A stretch of DNA of 62,465 nucleotides from the NCBI RefSeq assembly GCF_002067035.1, contig NZ_MVQB01000026.1:1-62465 (forward strand), written 5' to 3'. The stretch comes from Methanoregula sp. PtaB.Bin085 (GTDB lineage Archaea > Halobacteriota > Methanomicrobia > Methanomicrobiales > Methanospirillaceae). The position numbers were made by a program, and so were the translations under genes. Below the pieces are notes generated by a model, which did not search any database, had not been told where the DNA came from, and worked only from the letters and a program-made list of their open reading frames with translations. The stretch's first letter is position 1. Every line of letters begins with the position of its first letter. Of the stretch, positions 27,943 through 35,654 are shown one piece after another.

Positions 27943-28323
27943 ATGGAGGCAGAGACCTTGGCAAGGATTATTGGGTTCAGACCACAGCAGGAAACGCATA
28001 ACCTTATTGAAAAATTCGAGAACGAAGTGCTGGTCCGGTACAACAACCAGCAGTTACTGGGGACAGTATACGTGGATATGCAGATGGATCGGTGGTCCGT
28101 GGCATTCGCTTACAACTACTCCAGGAAACCCGGGCTGAATGGTCCGGAGAATCCGCTTGAGGTGCGTTACTTGGTTCAGCCCCTGACGGTGGACCGGGTG
28201 CAGATGTTCCGGTCGGATACCGCGACCGAAAAGATACTGGATGCCGGAACAATCAGGGATAAGGACGATTTCCTACGTTTTGTCCTGGCACAGGAGCGTT
28301 CTCTTGCCCTCCATGGAGCATGA
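27943..28323 (+). CDS. Hypothetical protein
   Basis: A 126-residue soluble protein. It has no signal peptide and no family that I recognise. LIEKFENEVLVRYNNQQLLGTVYVDMQMDRWSVAFAYNYSRKPGL looks like a small alpha/beta domain, followed by VRYLVQPLTVDRVQMFRSDTATEKILDAGTIRDKDDFLRFVLAQERSLAL. It lies between the pilin genes and the cobamide operon. The 40-bp gap to btuC could allow co-transcription, but no function can be assigned. Confidence 0.6.
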   Translation: MEAETLARIIGFRPQQETHNLIEKFENEVLVRYNNQQLLGTVYVDMQMDRWSVAFAYNYSRKPGLNGPENPLEVRYLVQPLTVDRVQMFRSDTATEKILDAGTIRDKDDFLRFVLAQERSLALHGA

Positions 28324-28363: not shown

Positions 28364-29311
28364 GTGACCCGCACCATCCCCGTCATCATCGCTCTCATCA
28401 TCGTGGCAGTCCTGACGATCATTCTCTGCACATTTATCGGCCCGGCCGGCTTCGGCTTCGTCACAACGGCGCCCGGGGCGGTTGATATCGTGGGCGGCAT
28501 CCGGCTCCCCCGTGTCCTTGCGGCATTCTCCGTGGGTGCAAGCTTAGCGGTTGCCGGTGCAGCCATGCAGGCGCTCTTCCGGAACCCGATGGCCGACCCG
28601 TACATCCTCGGCACATCATCCGGCGGGGCGCTGGGAGCATCGCTCGCGCTGGTCTTTCTCGGGGGATTCTTTGTCCCCGTCTGTGCATGGATCGGTGCCG
28701 TTGCTGCCATCCTCATTGTCTGGTTGATCGCGGGAAGGGGCGGCGTCATCTCGACAGAAACACTTCTTCTCACGGGCATCGCCGTCTCGTTCTTCTTCTC
28801 GGCCATCGTCTCGTTCCTGATCTCGGTGGCCGGCCAGAACGTCCACCAGATCCTCTTCTGGCTCATGGGGGGGTTCTGGAATGCATCGCCGTCCGACGCG
28901 ATCCTGTCGGCCGGTATCCTTGTACCGGCCGGGTTTCTCCTGTTCTTCATGGGCCGCGACCTCAATGCGCTCTCCCTTGGCGAGGAGACTGCCGCCCATC
29001 TCGGCATCGATGCCGCCCGCGCCCGCTGGACTGTGCTTGGCGGCAGCACCCTTCTTGTTGCCGGCGCCGTGTCCATCGCCGGCTCAATCGGTTTCATCGG
29101 GCTCGTCACCCCGCACATCGTCCGGCTGCTCCTCGGCCCGGACAACCGCATGGTAATCCCGGCCAGTATCCTAGCCGGCGGGATCCTTCTCGTTGTCTCG
29201 GATACCCTGGCCCGGACATTCTTCTCCGATCTGCCTGTCGGGATCATCACTGCATTCATCGGCGCCCCATTCTTTATCTGGCTCATCTACCGCCGGGGGG
29301 CCTTGTCATGA
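28364..29311 (+). CDS. btuC: Cobalamin/iron-complex ABC transporter permease (BtuC-like)
   Basis: A 315-residue permease starting with GTG. About nine to ten helices carry the FecCD blocks GGIRLPRVLAAFSVGASLAVAGAAMQALFRNPMADPYILGTSSGGALGASLAL and IGFIGLVTPHIVRLLLGPDNR. NPMADPYILG rather than NPLA.P..LG is common among BtuC-like members. It overlaps the ATPase gene and leads an operon that includes BtuF-like, CbiA-like and CbiZ proteins, so cobamide or cobinamide is the likely substrate. Assignment rests on family plus context. Confidence 0.9.
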   Translation: MTRTIPVIIALIIVAVLTIILCTFIGPAGFGFVTTAPGAVDIVGGIRLPRVLAAFSVGASLAVAGAAMQALFRNPMADPYILGTSSGGALGASLALVFLGGFFVPVCAWIGAVAAILIVWLIAGRGGVISTETLLLTGIAVSFFFSAIVSFLISVAGQNVHQILFWLMGGFWNASPSDAILSAGILVPAGFLLFFMGRDLNALSLGEETAAHLGIDAARARWTVLGGSTLLVAGAVSIAGSIGFIGLVTPHIVRLLLGPDNRMVIPASILAGGILLVVSDTLARTFFSDLPVGIITAFIGAPFFIWLIYRRGALS

Positions 29312-30597
29312 ACGGCCCAGATCCGGTCAATGCAGAGAATCTCGCTGCCGGGTATAACGGGGAAGAGATCATCAGGTCCGTCAGCTGCTCGTTTGAAAAG
29401 GGAACCTTCACGGGCATCATCGGCCCGAACGGCTCAGGCAAGACAACGCTCCTGCGGGCGATCAGCCGGATACTCCCCGCAACCGGGATCCTCGAACTCG
29501 ATGGCCGGCCGGTTTGTGACTATACGACTGCCGAGCTGGGCATGGTACTTGGTTTTGTCCCGCAGGACGAAGAACGGTCGTTCGCCTACACGGTCATGCA
29601 GGTCGTGCTGATGTCGCGGTATTCCCGGACAGGCAGGTTCTCCCCGTTATCACCAGACGATTATGCCCGGTGTAACGATGCCCTGGAACGGACCGGGATC
29701 GGCCGGCTGAAGGACCGGTCGATCCGGGCACTCAGCGGCGGGGAGTGGCAGCGGGTGCTCATTGCCCGGGCCCTTGCGCAGGATACGCCGGTGATCCTGA
29801 TGGACGAGCCGACATCGCATCTCGACCTCGCACACCAGGCCGGGATACTTTCGCTGGTACGCGACCTTGCCGGTTCCGGGAGGACTATTATCGGGGTCTT
29901 CCACGATCTCAACCTTGCCTCCCAGTACTGCGACAGGCTCCTGATGATCCGGGACGGGAAGATTGTTGCCGACGGGTCGCCGGCCAAGGTCCTGACCCCG
30001 GAAAATGTCTGGGATGTCTACGGGGCCGAGGTGGTCACAACCAGTCACCCGGCAACAGGCCGGACCATCCTGCTGCCCCTCGGAACCCGGCATGCGGACA
30101 GTCATACCAAAGATAACCAGAATGTTCTTGTCATCTCCGGCGGGGGAAGCGGGGGTGAACTCCTCCGTTTCCTGTACCGGAGGGGATATTCTGTCTCGGC
30201 CGGCATCCTTGCAACAACGGATTCCGATTATACCGTTGCAAAGGTGCTGAAGATCCCGTATATTCCGGTCATGCCGTTCTCCCAAATTTCGGACCATGCC
30301 CTTGAAAAACTGAAGCGGATGATCGCGCAATCTGACCGGATTGTCCTGTCTGCCCATCCGGTCGGAACCGGGAATTTACCGGTCCTCGAAGCGGTCCGGG
30401 GCACAGGCCCCGGGCGGCTGCTCATTCACCTGCCGGAGGGCCGGGACATTGCATCATATGACTTTGCAAAAGGCGCAGCGGCAGCCGTATACCAGCAGAT
30501 CCTCGATGCCGGTTCGCCCTGTTGTGAAACCCATGACAGCATACTCCGGCATCTGGAACAGGAATCCCAACGGAAAAACCGTGAAGGTGACCCATGA
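29308..30597 (+). CDS. btuD: Cobalamin ABC transporter ATPase (BtuD-like) with extra C-terminal domain
   Basis: A 429-residue protein from the ATG at 29308. Residues 1-260 are an ABC ATPase: Walker [11 protein letters not shown] (39-48), signature LSGGEWQRV (142-150), Walker [13 protein letters not shown], switch VFHDLNLA. Residues about 272-415 form a second domain, [37 protein letters not shown] then [19 protein letters not shown] and [12 protein letters not shown]. It looks like a Rossmann-type fold with a glycine-rich nucleotide-binding loop. Standard BtuD ends near residue 260. The extra domain may sense a nucleotide or corrinoid; its function is unknown to me. Confidence 0.9.
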
Positions 30598-31346
30598 GCA
30601 GACGCCCCCTCTTCATCTCGACCTACTGCTGCATTGACCAGCCGCTTGACAAGGCTCTTGGCATTCTCGCCGGCCGTACAACCCATGTCGAGATTCTTTC
30701 AGACGGCCTCCACAACCTGCTCGACGGCTCCGCAGCCTGTGACGAATACCCGCTTACGTACACCGTCCATGCCCCGACAAGCGAGACCAACATCGCGTCC
30801 GTGAACGAACGTATGCGGAGCGCTTCGGTTGCCGTCCTGGAAGACGTGCTTGTTGTCTGCAATCGTATCAATGCAACCCGCTGTGTCGTCCATCCCGGAT
30901 ATTCGGCATACGAACAGGTGAAGGACCGGTCCTCTGCGTCCCTCCTTCGTTCGCTTGACGACATTGTCCGTCTCCAGGATGAACACGGGGTGCGGGTCTG
31001 CGTGGAGAACATGGGTGCATGGGAATGCTGCCATTTCCGGACGCCGGCGTTTATCCCGGAACTGGCCTTGCGCGGGCTCGGGATGACTCTCGACTGCGGC
31101 CATGCCCGGCTGAACGGCAACCTCGATGCATTCCTTGCCGCCGGCGGCTCCTGCCATGTCCATCTCCATGACAATGACGGGTGTATTGACGACCATGCAG
31201 CATGCGGCAGCGGAACAACCGATTTTACTGCAGTGCTGCCGCGCCTTCCCACGGATGCATCGCTGGTCGTGGAGACACGCGGGCTTGCAGCAGCTGACGA
31301 GAGCATCTGCTGCCTTTCCTCAATCCTGAACGGAGAAAAATCATGA
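30594..31346 (+). CDS. cbiR: CbiR-like cobamide remodelling enzyme (AP-endonuclease-2 TIM barrel)
   Basis: A 250-residue TIM barrel of the AP_endonuc_2/xylose-isomerase-like superfamily. Likely metal ligands lie at strand ends: YTVHAPTSE, CVVHPGYSAYE, VCVENMGAW, GMTLDCGHARLNG, HVHLHDNDG and LVVETRG. CbiR of Akkermansia belongs to this superfamily and hydrolyses the phosphoribosyl bond of cobamides, giving cobinamide phosphate. Here the gene overlaps btuD and btuF and lies three genes from cbiZ, which strongly suggests a cobamide-salvage role. A generic sugar-phosphate isomerase cannot be excluded by sequence alone. Confidence 0.75.
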   Translation: MSRRPLFISTYCCIDQPLDKALGILAGRTTHVEILSDGLHNLLDGSAACDEYPLTYTVHAPTSETNIASVNERMRSASVAVLEDVLVVCNRINATRCVVHPGYSAYEQVKDRSSASLLRSLDDIVRLQDEHGVRVCVENMGAWECCHFRTPAFIPELALRGLGMTLDCGHARLNGNLDAFLAAGGSCHVHLHDNDGCIDDHAACGSGTTDFTAVLPRLPTDASLVVETRGLAAADESICCLSSILNGEKS

Positions 31347-32374
31347 AACCCACAACGACCCGTGTTCCCTGTCATAGTGCAGTAATCCTTATCCTTGCAC
31401 TGGCACTCTGCCTGAACATCCTGCCTGTTTCAGCCGTAACCGTGACCGACGATTCCGGCGCGAATGTCACGCTCGCAGCCCCGCCACAGCGGATCGTCTC
31501 GCTCGCCCCCTCCAACACCGAGATCCTCGCCGCGCTCGGCCTTCTCGACAGGGTCGTCGGGGTGACGGATGTCTGCGATTATCCCCCGGCCGTGAAAACA
31601 ATTCCCCGGATTGGCGGCTATTCAGCCATCAGTACCGAGAAGGTCTCCGCTGCACACCCTGACCTCGTCCTCGCATCCGATATCACGCCGAAGGAGACGG
31701 TCCGGCGCCTCCGTGCCCTCGGGCTGACGGTCATGGTCGTGTCGCCGCATAACATCGATCAGGTGATAGAGGACATCCGCAGGATCGGGACGGTTACCGG
31801 AGAAGAATCAACGGCAGACACGCTTGCTGCAAACCTCTCGGCCCGTCTTGCAGTCATTGCTCCGGCAAATCCTGCAACCCGGCGCCCGACCGTTGCACAT
31901 GTTGTCTGGAACAAGCCGCTCTATGTGAGCGGCAACGATACCCTGCAGGATGATATTATCGCACATGCGGGCGGTACGAATGCGTTTTCCAATGTTGACG
32001 GCTGGGGGACGGTCTCCCTCGAACAGTTCCTGATGAAGAACCCGGACATCGTCATTGTCAGCGGGGGAGGCGGCATGGACAATGCCATACGCGACGTAAT
32101 CCTCGAGGATTTCATGACGAGCCCGCAGTACGCCTCACTCTCTGCAGTAAAGAACCACCGGGTTTACGCTGTGAATGCGGATGCCATCAGCCGTGCCGGG
32201 CCGAGGATTGTAGATGCAGCCGAACAGGTGGCAGCGGATATCCGCGCCATGGAAATGGCCGACAAAACATCACGGGAGATCCCGGCACCTGCTGCACGGT
32301 CACCGGGATTCTGTGCCGGCAGCATTGTCCTCATCATCGGCATCATGGTCGTTCTCCGGGAGGCGGGGGCCTGA
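31343..32374 (+). CDS. btuF: Cobalamin-binding protein BtuF-like, with PGF-CTERM anchor
   Basis: A 343-residue protein with a signal peptide (VILILALALCLNILPVSA) but no lipobox. The Peripla_BP_2 domain follows: VTDDSGANVTLAAPPQRIVSLAPSNTEILAALGLLDRVVGVTDVCDYP is close to BtuF. The C-terminus is SPGFCAGSIVLIIGIMVVL followed by Arg, a PGF-CTERM type sorting signal, so the protein is probably anchored by an archaeosortase at its C-terminus. The other uptake systems in the window use lipoproteins. It overlaps cbiR and supplies ligand to BtuCD. Confidence 0.89.
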   Translation: MKPTTTRVPCHSAVILILALALCLNILPVSAVTVTDDSGANVTLAAPPQRIVSLAPSNTEILAALGLLDRVVGVTDVCDYPPAVKTIPRIGGYSAISTEKVSAAHPDLVLASDITPKETVRRLRALGLTVMVVSPHNIDQVIEDIRRIGTVTGEESTADTLAANLSARLAVIAPANPATRRPTVAHVVWNKPLYVSGNDTLQDDIIAHAGGTNAFSNVDGWGTVSLEQFLMKNPDIVIVSGGGGMDNAIRDVILEDFMTSPQYASLSAVKNHRVYAVNADAISRAGPRIVDAAEQVAADIRAMEMADKTSREIPAPAARSPGFCAGSIVLIIGIMVVLREAGA

Positions 32375-32417
32375 TGGTTCGCCTTTCCGGGCAAAGCAAC
32401 AGTCATGGGTGTCTTTC

Positions 32418-33761
32418 ATGCCGGTGACCATTCCCCGCATTGTTGTTGCCGGGACGGAGAGCGGTTGCGGCAAGACTTCTGTTGCCGGCGGCCTGATGGC
32501 TGCGCTTGGCGAGCGGGGTCTCCAAGTCCAGCCGTTCAAGACCGGCCCTGACTTCATCGATCCCACGCACCATACCGCTCTCTGCGGGAGGGTCTCGCGG
32601 AACCTTGACACGTTCATGATGGGGGAACAAGGCGTCCTGCAGGTATTCGTTTCGGCATCCCGCGGTGCGGATATTGCGGTTATCGAAGGTGCCATGGGCC
32701 TCTTTGACGGGATTGACGGAACGGATTTCGCGAGCACGTCCCACGTGGCACGGATCCTCGATGCCCCGGTCCTTCTCGTTGTTAATGCAGGAGCGGCATC
32801 GCGAAGCGTCCACGCGGTTGTCCGTGGTTTCCAGGCATTCGATCCCCGCATCAGGATTACGGGAGTCATCTTCAACAGGCTCGGAAGTGCCAGACACCGC
32901 TCGATGATTGCTGCGGAAGAATACGTCCCGGCCATCGGCTATATCCCCCGCCAGGGTGGACCCGGCGTGCAGAGCCGCCATCTCGGTCTTGTGATGGCAC
33001 ATGAATCGGACGGGATGGAGGCGTACGGTGCCGTTGTCCGGGACTCGTGCAACCTCGACGCAATCCTGGCGATCTCGCGGTCTGCCCCGGAGATGCCGCG
33101 TATTTCCTCTTCCGATGAGATGCCTGAAGCCGGAAAACGGGCGGTCATCGGTATTGCGTGGGACCGGGCATTTTGTTTTTACTACCAGGACAATCTCGAC
33201 AGGCTCAGGCAGGCCGGGGCAGAACTCAGATTTTTCTCTCCCATGGACGACAGGCTTCCGGACACCGATGGGCTTTACATCGGCGGGGGATACCCGGAGC
33301 TGTATGCCGGACAACTCGAAACTTCGCAGTGCAGGCATGCCATCCGCGAGATGGCTGACCGTGGCATGCCGGTGTATGATGAATGTGGCGGGCTCATGTA
33401 CCTGAGCAGATCGATCTCTGCCGATCGCGAGTACCGGATGGCCGGCATCCTGCCTGCCAGCGCAGAGATGACGGACAGGATCCAGGCTCTCGGGTACGTT
33501 AAAGGAACCTTTCCCGATTATACCGGATCATGGGCCGGTGCTTCTCCCGTTCTCGGGCACGAGTTCCATTATTCCCGGGTGATATGCGATCGCGATGCAC
33601 GATTCTCCCTCTGCCTGACGCAGGGCACCGGGATTCGTGAGGGGAACGATGGCCTCACCGAGCATAACGCGGTCGGGACGTATACCCATGCGTATTTCAA
33701 CGATACTTTCTGCCGGCAGTTTGTTGCCGCGGCGGAAGCGTTCCGGAGGAAGGGGAAGTGA
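32418..33761 (+). CDS. cbiA: Cobyrinate / Ni-sirohydrochlorin a,c-diamide synthase (CbiA/CfbB family)
   Basis: A 447-residue amidotransferase from the ATG at 32418. The N-terminal synthetase domain has the P-loop AGTESGCGKTS (11-21) and FKTGPDFIDPTHH, and IEGAMGLFDG. The C-terminal class I glutaminase domain has YIGGGYPELYA and nucleophile Cys323 in YDECGGLMYL. ALGYVKGTFPDYTGS and GHEFHYS are family hallmarks. CbiA amidates cobyrinate and CfbB amidates Ni-sirohydrochlorin for F430, and motifs alone do not separate them. The cobamide operon context favours CbiA, although a remodelling pathway from cobyric acid would not strictly need it. Confidence 0.87.
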   Translation: MPVTIPRIVVAGTESGCGKTSVAGGLMAALGERGLQVQPFKTGPDFIDPTHHTALCGRVSRNLDTFMMGEQGVLQVFVSASRGADIAVIEGAMGLFDGIDGTDFASTSHVARILDAPVLLVVNAGAASRSVHAVVRGFQAFDPRIRITGVIFNRLGSARHRSMIAAEEYVPAIGYIPRQGGPGVQSRHLGLVMAHESDGMEAYGAVVRDSCNLDAILAISRSAPEMPRISSSDEMPEAGKRAVIGIAWDRAFCFYYQDNLDRLRQAGAELRFFSPMDDRLPDTDGLYIGGGYPELYAGQLETSQCRHAIREMADRGMPVYDECGGLMYLSRSISADREYRMAGILPASAEMTDRIQALGYVKGTFPDYTGSWAGASPVLGHEFHYSRVICDRDARFSLCLTQGTGIREGNDGLTEHNAVGTYTHAYFNDTFCRQFVAAAEAFRRKGK

Positions 33762-34852
33762 ATGGGATCATTGACAGGGCCGTCATTCCTGCAAATGTAC
33801 AGATGGGACGCTGCGGGAATTCGGTGACCGTCCATTTCCTCGGGCCGTGCAATGTCCTCTCGACTTCGTGGCTGAATGGGGGATACCGGACAGATCTCAG
33901 GGCGGTCTTCAACCACCAGATCTCCCTTGAGGCCTGCGAGGCCTGCCACAACGGGAGACGGATCAGAACCTATCTTGAAGAAGTTGCTTCCGATCTCGGG
34001 TTCGATCCGTCTCGCGTGACCGGGCTGGTCACCCGTGCGGGGATGAAGAATACGGCGGTCGTTTCCGAAACATTCCGCGACCTTACCGTAGCTGCCATTG
34101 TGACTGCCGGCTTAGACAGGAACGGCGGCCGGGCCGGGGATCCTGCCTCTTATTATGAAAATGGCGATACGTTCGAGCCGGTGGGAGGCACGATCAATAC
34201 TATCCTGATCATCGGCGCTGACCTGCCGGAGCACGCGATGTCCCGTGCGCTGATGACTGCGACCGAGGCAAAGGCTGCAGCACTCCAGCAGCTGATGGCC
34301 CGGAGTATATACTCGACCGGTATTGCAACCGGGTCCGGTACGGATATGATTGCCATTGTCACGGATCCCGGCTCGCCGCTTCATCTGTCAGATGCAGGAA
34401 AGCACGCGAAGCTCGGCGAACTCATCGGGAGCACGGTTATCGGGGCGACGATAGAAGCACTGGAGATGGAGACCGGATTGTCGGCTGCATTCCAACGGGA
34501 TGTGCTCGTACGGCTCGCACGGTTCGGTGTCACGGTTGAGGATATCTGGAATAGCGCGAATATTCATCCACAACGATCGTTTTCCGACAACCGTGTAAAG
34601 GAAAAGTTCATGGAGCGTTTGCAAGAGCAGGCACGGGAACCGGAACGGGTTGCACTGGTGTCAGCAATTCTCCATATTGTCGACGAGGCCGGGTGGGGTC
34701 TTATACCGGAGGACGATGCAACCCGGGCTGCTTCACGGCTTATCCGGGATGGCTTTAGTACGGAGCGCACCGGGATCAACGATACCGGATCAATTATTCC
34801 GGATCTGGCCCGGGCACTGGCGGAATCTGCCCTCCAAGAGGATTTCCAATAA
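33758..34852 (+). CDS. cbiZ: Adenosylcobinamide amidohydrolase CbiZ
   Basis: A 364-residue protein starting with GTG in a four-base overlap with the synthase gene. CbiZ motifs are LGPCNVLSTSWLNGGY near the N-terminus, VTGLVTRAGMKNTAVVSETF, TINTILIIGADLPEHAM and ATGSGTDMIAIVTD. In Methanosarcina CbiZ cleaves the aminopropanol tail of (adenosyl)cobinamide to give cobyric acid, which re-enters the pathway with a new tail and lower ligand. The extra C-terminal part (VKEKFMERLQEQ...) appears in many archaeal members. It closes the operon and fits with the CbiR-like protein, which would feed it. Confidence 0.93.
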   Translation: MNGIIDRAVIPANVQMGRCGNSVTVHFLGPCNVLSTSWLNGGYRTDLRAVFNHQISLEACEACHNGRRIRTYLEEVASDLGFDPSRVTGLVTRAGMKNTAVVSETFRDLTVAAIVTAGLDRNGGRAGDPASYYENGDTFEPVGGTINTILIIGADLPEHAMSRALMTATEAKAAALQQLMARSIYSTGIATGSGTDMIAIVTDPGSPLHLSDAGKHAKLGELIGSTVIGATIEALEMETGLSAAFQRDVLVRLARFGVTVEDIWNSANIHPQRSFSDNRVKEKFMERLQEQAREPERVALVSAILHIVDEAGWGLIPEDDATRAASRLIRDGFSTERTGINDTGSIIPDLARALAESALQEDFQ

Positions 34853-35231: not shown

Positions 35232-35654
35232 TTAATCCTCCAGCGATATCGTCGTGAGCTTGACCGACTCAACCCCTTTCTGGGACATCAGCTTCTCAGC
35301 GAGGGCCTTGAGCTGGGTGCCGTCGCCATGGACAAGGATCACCTCAAGGCACCGGTCGTGGGTGACGTGCGAGTGGAGCGAGGCCTTGATGATGGACTGA
35401 TTGTCATGCTCGATATCGGTAAGGGTTGTCAGGAGGTTGCGCTGGTCATGGTCGTACACCATCGTGATGACACCTTCCCGCTCTCCTTTTACATCGGACA
35501 TCCACTTGTAGTACGTGATGTAGGTCCGGATCGCGTCGCGGATCCCCTCCGAACGGGAAGAGTAGCCGCGGTAGTTCAGGATCTCATCGAAACGGTCGAG
35601 AAGGTTTTTCGGCAGCGATATGCCAATCCGGGAGAGGTCGTCGTCCATGGTCAT
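35232..35654 (-). CDS. nikR: Nickel-responsive regulator NikR
   Basis: A 140-residue protein with an N-terminal ribbon-helix-helix domain (SRIGISLPKNLLDRFDEILNYRGYSSRSEGIRDAIRTYI) and a C-terminal ACT-like domain. The nickel-site residues are visible: one His in TDIEHDNQ, the H-x-H pair in SLHSHVTHDRCLEVILV, and the following Cys. Nickel-bound NikR tetramers repress nickel-uptake genes. It is transcribed alone towards the cobamide operon. Targets in this window could include the nickel/peptide importer and the CbiM systems. The 140 bp upstream include CACATGATGTG, a small palindrome near 35730. Confidence 0.95.
   Translation of the reverse strand: MTMDDDLSRIGISLPKNLLDRFDEILNYRGYSSRSEGIRDAIRTYITYYKWMSDVKGEREGVITMVYDHDQRNLLTTLTDIEHDNQSIIKASLHSHVTHDRCLEVILVHGDGTQLKALAEKLMSQKGVESVKLTTISLED

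Follow-up and report, generated by a model that had tools for sequence, protein, structure and literature searches.

The window, the whole stretch of 62,465 nucleotides analysed here, is one contig of the 2.9 Mb genome (98% complete) of Methanoregula sp. PtaB.Bin085, and positions 28364-34852 of its + strand carry btuC, btuD, an AP-endonuclease-2 TIM barrel gene, btuF, cbiA and cbiZ in that order. The sequence-only reading had described these six genes as tightly linked and mostly overlapping, and all six are indeed found at this place and on this strand, with successive junctions from btuC to cbiZ of -4, -4, -4, a short gap and -4 nucleotides, so that four of the five junctions overlap. In addition, a conserved ORF that had been overlooked ends 40 nucleotides upstream of btuC. 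The features are listed below; the start codon of cbiA was picked by eye.

27943-28323, + strand: conserved ORF of about 126 amino acids; no Pfam match; homologues at 46-65% identity
28364-29311, + strand: btuC, corrinoid ABC transporter permease; PF01032 (FecCD) 283.5 bits, BtuC model PRK09535 273 bits
29308-30597, + strand: btuD, corrinoid ABC transporter ATPase; ABC_tran 100 bits, PRK09536 304.7 bits
30594-31346, + strand: CbiR-like AP-endonuclease-2 TIM barrel, proposed cobamide phosphodiesterase; PF01261 86 bits
31343-32374, + strand: btuF, corrinoid-binding protein; PF01497 (Peripla_BP_2) 128.8 bits, TIGR04281 154.9 bits
about 32418-33761, + strand: cbiA paralogue (cobyrinic acid a,c-diamide synthase family); NF002204 449.8 bits
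33758-34852, + strand: cbiZ, long form extended at the C terminus; PF01955 195 bits

About ten Methanoregula-type loci encode a homologue of the 126-residue protein directly before btuC, and extra copies of the gene sit downstream of some operons; the gene at 27943-28323 is probably the first member of the cluster. Since the Rfam search gave no match, a cobalamin riboswitch was judged to be absent. A gene for the nickel-responsive regulator NikR (35232-35654, - strand) converges on the end of cbiZ.

For the import genes, the top NCBIfam models were PRK09535 for BtuC (cut-off 461 bits) and PRK09536, the corrinoid ABC transporter ATPase, for BtuD (cut-off 537 bits), and BtuF matched TIGR04281 as well as the BtuF model PRK03379 (128 bits), under the cut-off of each. 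Because none of the three proteins reached its equivalog cut-off, the corrinoid role of BtuCDF rests on gene context, and the presence of cbiA and cbiZ within the same operon suggests that the transported substrate is a corrinoid. BtuD also possesses a C-terminal domain of about 165 residues (about 30088-30594), which is conserved across Methanomicrobiales and has no match in Pfam. The predicted model of this domain is confident and Rossmann-like, with the motifs GGGxG, DSDY and GxGN, and its fold shows weak similarity to DprA and dehydrogenases.

Among 60 relatives, and then in the named genomes, the TIM barrel formed a distinct group (group A), apart from the remaining AP-endonuclease-2 paralogues that these genomes encode. 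In a 72-row tree, obtained by a quick search with no bootstrap and with rows that do not include bacterial CbiR sequences, group A was a single branch with 99% SH-aLRT support. Group A records came from Methanoregula, Methanolinea, Methanoculleus, Methanofollis and Methanocorpusculum. Named genomes supplied 41 group A loci, of which 36 had btuC, btuD or btuF no more than 3 kb away, whereas none of the 39 loci of the nearest paralogues had. Four of the five unlinked loci were short contigs or matches close to a contig end, and one, in Methanocorpusculum parvum (L128), seems real.

The shared core, btuC-btuD-TIM barrel-btuF, recurs across Methanomicrobiales, and the identical gene order in many of these genomes places the arrangement far beyond chance. 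We conclude that the operon forms a conserved unit for corrinoid import. The genes cbiA and cbiZ follow the core only in Methanoregula-type genomes, and not in every one of them; in most families the core operon contains the TIM barrel and no CbiZ, and most family members have no cbiA in the operon.

Several individual loci showed further features. The TIM-barrel gene of Methanoregula sp. SKADARSKE-2, whose genome is complete, carries an in-frame TAA (L136 7992-8741, the same as L013 1501-2250), and the adjoining btuD and btuF stay open. A Thermoleophilia bacterium record (L178 2901-6617) contains three neighbouring TIM-barrel copies that group within the Methanothrix-type archaeal proteins. 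In the window, two type IV pilin-like genes side by side (PF07790; 26585-27196 and 27193-27819) closely precede the operon. PF07790 genes, mostly paired and directly before btuF or the operon, were found at 7 of the 41 group A loci and at 0 of the 39 control loci; the source genome has only 8 in total.

The TIM barrel had been called CbiR-like and given the role of CbiR, and its top NCBIfam model is indeed CbiR (NF041277), although its score of 55.5 bits lies far under the curated equivalog cut-off, which is 105 bits. The model matched 13 of 13 sampled clade members with a better E-value than any other NCBIfam model, and the linkage that characterizes CbiR, a position beside cobamide biosynthesis or transport genes, is seen at the 36 linked group A loci. 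However, the cut-off was passed by none of the 60 relatives and by no protein in 393 genomes of the phylum. Furthermore, a haloarchaeal protein of a phosphonate operon scored 67 bits, Thermococcus proteins 62-73 bits and other haloarchaeal proteins up to 97 bits, and inspection of the 3.6 kb loci of the high-scoring haloarchaeal proteins revealed no cobamide genes among the visible neighbours. Since archaeal proteins in unrelated contexts score the same or higher, the CbiR-model score is unspecific at this level. The name CbiR is thus premature, and the best-supported description is that the barrel is CbiR-like by context and likely chemistry.

These observations bear on the possibility that the ancestor of Methanomicrobiales acquired a bacterial cobamide phosphodiesterase, a true CbiR, which then diverged. 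The consistent model matches agree with such an acquisition, as does the single archaeal taxon recorded by Mok et al. among the holders of CbiR homologues, the others being 275 bacterial taxa (PMC7733943). The scores, which are under the cut-off throughout and no better than those of unlinked archaeal proteins, and the tree, which places the barrel among archaeal paralogues, argue against it, making this origin very improbable. Matches from a plasmid tblastn search were also rejected as bacterial CbiR, as their neighbouring genes were of phosphonate, glycerophosphodiester, TRAP or sugar type, and both of the scored matches stayed under the CbiR cut-off. A plasmid search with a Thermoleophilia relative returned nothing, and viral contigs and phages yielded no useful relative.

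In profile comparisons, MJ1311 of Methanocaldococcus jannaschii was nearest (E = 9e-44), followed by endonuclease IV (1.7e-18), IolI (1.4e-6) and epimerases (0.006). The AlphaFold2 model of the barrel (pLDDT 96) is likewise closest, among solved folds, to MJ1311 (3wqo; TM 0.88), which is described as D-tagatose 3-epimerase-like. The operon barrel is only 27% identical to MJ1311, for which we know of no link to corrinoid transport. Residues H59, H100, E138, D167, H170, H190, D199, H201 and E227 align with the nine positions that we take to be the trinuclear-site metal ligands of endonuclease IV (Nfo). The Nfo models themselves scored far under their cut-offs (31.7 against 244 bits and 25.9 against 129.65 bits). 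Each of the 22 sampled group A members keeps all nine ligands, which are invariant in the sister paralogues as well, so that the metal site, being common to paralogues without cobamide linkage, does not specify the substrate. The retention of the nine ligands makes phosphodiesterase chemistry plausible and sugar-isomerase chemistry unlikely.

The barrel might instead isomerize or epimerize sugars, or catalyse some other reaction that does not involve cobamides, and be kept in the operon for a different reason; a closer grouping with sugar isomerases had been named as the result that would speak against a CbiR-like enzyme. Although the predicted fold alone does not distinguish endonuclease IV from epimerases, the profile is nearer to endonuclease IV, the ligand set is that of endonuclease IV and not the smaller epimerase site, and the linkage to corrinoid transport is strict across families, which leaves a non-cobamide function quite improbable. 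It is plausible from the conserved residues that the barrel is a metal-dependent phosphodiesterase of the endonuclease-IV type, and we propose a cobamide as its substrate.

Like Akkermansia muciniphila CbiR (Amuc_1679; PMC7733943), the barrel belongs to the AP-endonuclease-2 TIM barrels, has His/Asp/Glu metal residues and is linked to cobamide or transport genes. Unlike the archaeal protein, CbiR is bacterial and is linked mostly to cobamide biosynthesis genes, and the archaeal barrel reaches about half the CbiR cut-off, in a comparison made through the model score. The barrel resembles bacterial CbiR, probably without direct kinship, and was most likely recruited from archaeal MJ1311-type barrels rather than inherited as a true CbiR.

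The operon cbiA-family gene had been assigned to CbiA or CfbB. The family holds, and the scores and a careful tree decide for CbiA: the protein scored 449.8 bits with NF002204, above the cut-off of 254, whereas the CfbB model stayed under its cut-off of 560, and the gene lies in a clade of operon copies (100/100) next to the chromosomal CbiA. The grouping with CbiA rules out a CfbB identity. The source genome has three members of the CbiA/CfbB family, and its member on the CfbB side of the tree adjoins a gene that, by inspection, resembles cfbD.

For CbiZ, the PF01955 score is well over the cut-off of 27 bits, as in the archaeal CbiZ/CbiS salvage enzymes. The operon protein differs from these in its long form: the CbiS model (NF038002) gave 83 bits against a cut-off of 250, the C-terminal part of the protein alone gave E = 0.004, and the similarity of the extension to the CobZ-like protein of the same genome is faint (E = 7e-4, 22% identity over 60 residues). 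A bifunctional CbiS identity is thus unsupported. CbiZ is encoded twice in the source genome. Of the genomes of the genus, 11 carried both long cbiZ and group A, 4 group A only, 1 long cbiZ only and 20 neither (Fisher p = 2e-5, uncorrected for relatedness and incomplete assemblies); the contig of the lone cbiZ-only genome begins inside btuF.

Clusters of relatives (L220 266-13528, L226 6710-15844 and L219 6055-14001) contain a long CbiZ, BtuCD-like transporter genes and CbiK, together with a weak AP_endonuc_2 protein, chelatase-like AAA/VWA genes and a NifH-nitrogenase-like fusion, with a content that varies by locus. These clusters represent an unexplained tetrapyrrole system. The extra CbiA paralogue inside the operon, and the chelatase-like and nitrogenase-like genes of such CbiZ clusters adjoining in relatives, would agree with an operon that salvages or trims another imported tetrapyrrole or corrinoid precursor, with CbiA as its main enzyme. 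However, the operon cbiA is missing in most family members, and we regard a CbiA-centred function as quite improbable.

The association of CbiR with CbiZ and with transport is already known in bacteria: nearly 20% of the taxa with CbiR homologues have CbiZ, and 25% of bacterial cbiR genes adjoin transport genes (PMC7733943). The suggestion that the pairing may be new therefore fails for the co-occurrence in one organism and stands for the archaeal setting, since we found no published description, in the open-access literature, of an archaeal btu operon that includes a CbiR-like gene. The closest parallel is provided by the DUF71-B12 clusters, in which an archaeal corrinoid salvage enzyme lies beside BtuCDF, although the DUF71 family is a PP-loop ATPase and the operon enzyme a TIM barrel (PMC3541065).

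The source genome encodes CobS, with a CobZ-like protein next to it, as well as CbiB and a CobY-like protein (124 bits, under the cut-off of 175), whose gene lies, by inspection, beside a cobD-like gene; CobU is absent from this genome. Cbi-P is a substrate of archaeal CobY, and to our knowledge archaea are incapable of phosphorylating cobinamide. Bacterial CbiR converts AdoCbl to AdoCbi-P and alpha-ribazole, a reaction that proceeds only under reducing conditions without oxygen and is abolished by EDTA (PMC7733943), and archaea salvage unphosphorylated cobinamide through CbiZ (PMC3541065). A CbiR-type cut would feed rebuilding without CbiZ, because Cbi-P enters the CobY step directly. The earlier proposal had placed CbiR before CbiZ in one series; since the CbiR product suits CobY, CbiZ serves unphosphorylated cobinamide and CobU is absent, we infer that the two enzymes provide parallel entries, each for another kind of imported molecule, instead of consecutive steps.

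A reverse order, in which CbiZ first cuts the amide of the intact cobamide and the barrel then hydrolyses the released phosphodiester of aminopropanol and the lower-ligand nucleoside, recovering its parts, was also considered. An endonuclease-IV-type metal site suits such a small diester, and CbiZ is encoded somewhere in the genome, at least once, in 43 of 43 well-assembled relatives. However, the core operon of most families has the TIM barrel and no CbiZ, and archaeal CbiZ is predicted to be inactive on pseudo-B12 (PMC3541065); we consider this order unlikely.

Our main reading, to which we assign a probability of roughly 0.58, is that the cluster is a corrinoid import-and-remodelling operon of Methanomicrobiales, in which a TIM barrel recruited from MJ1311-type proteins cleaves the lower ligand and CbiZ acts in parallel. 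In this pathway, BtuF would capture cobamides and their fragments and BtuCD would bring them in. The TIM barrel would remove the lower-ligand nucleoside from the imported cobamide, leaving adenosylcobinamide-phosphate, which CobY and CobS would rebuild with the archaeon's own lower ligand. Beside this route, CbiZ would convert imported cobinamide to cobyric acid for CbiB, and the extra CbiA may amidate under-amidated imported corrinoids. A more far-reaching evolutionary scenario, which we put forward tentatively and somewhat short of even odds, is that a cobamide-cleaving phosphodiesterase arose from MJ1311-type barrels within Methanomicrobiales, independently of bacterial CbiR and convergently with it. 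The import operon would then have been built around this enzyme, and the second copies of CbiZ and CbiA would be later gains of the Methanoregula-type archaea.

Members of anaerobic communities both share cobamides and compete for them, and methanogens depend on a cobamide for methyl transfer; in bacteria, remodelling through removal of the lower ligand has been demonstrated. The cluster probably takes up foreign B12-type molecules and removes the variable lower portion so that they can be rebuilt. If this is true, methanogens would strip foreign cobamides and rebuild their own by a conserved, transport-coupled archaeal route, and the MJ1311-type proteins, whose structure is solved, would gain a functional lead.
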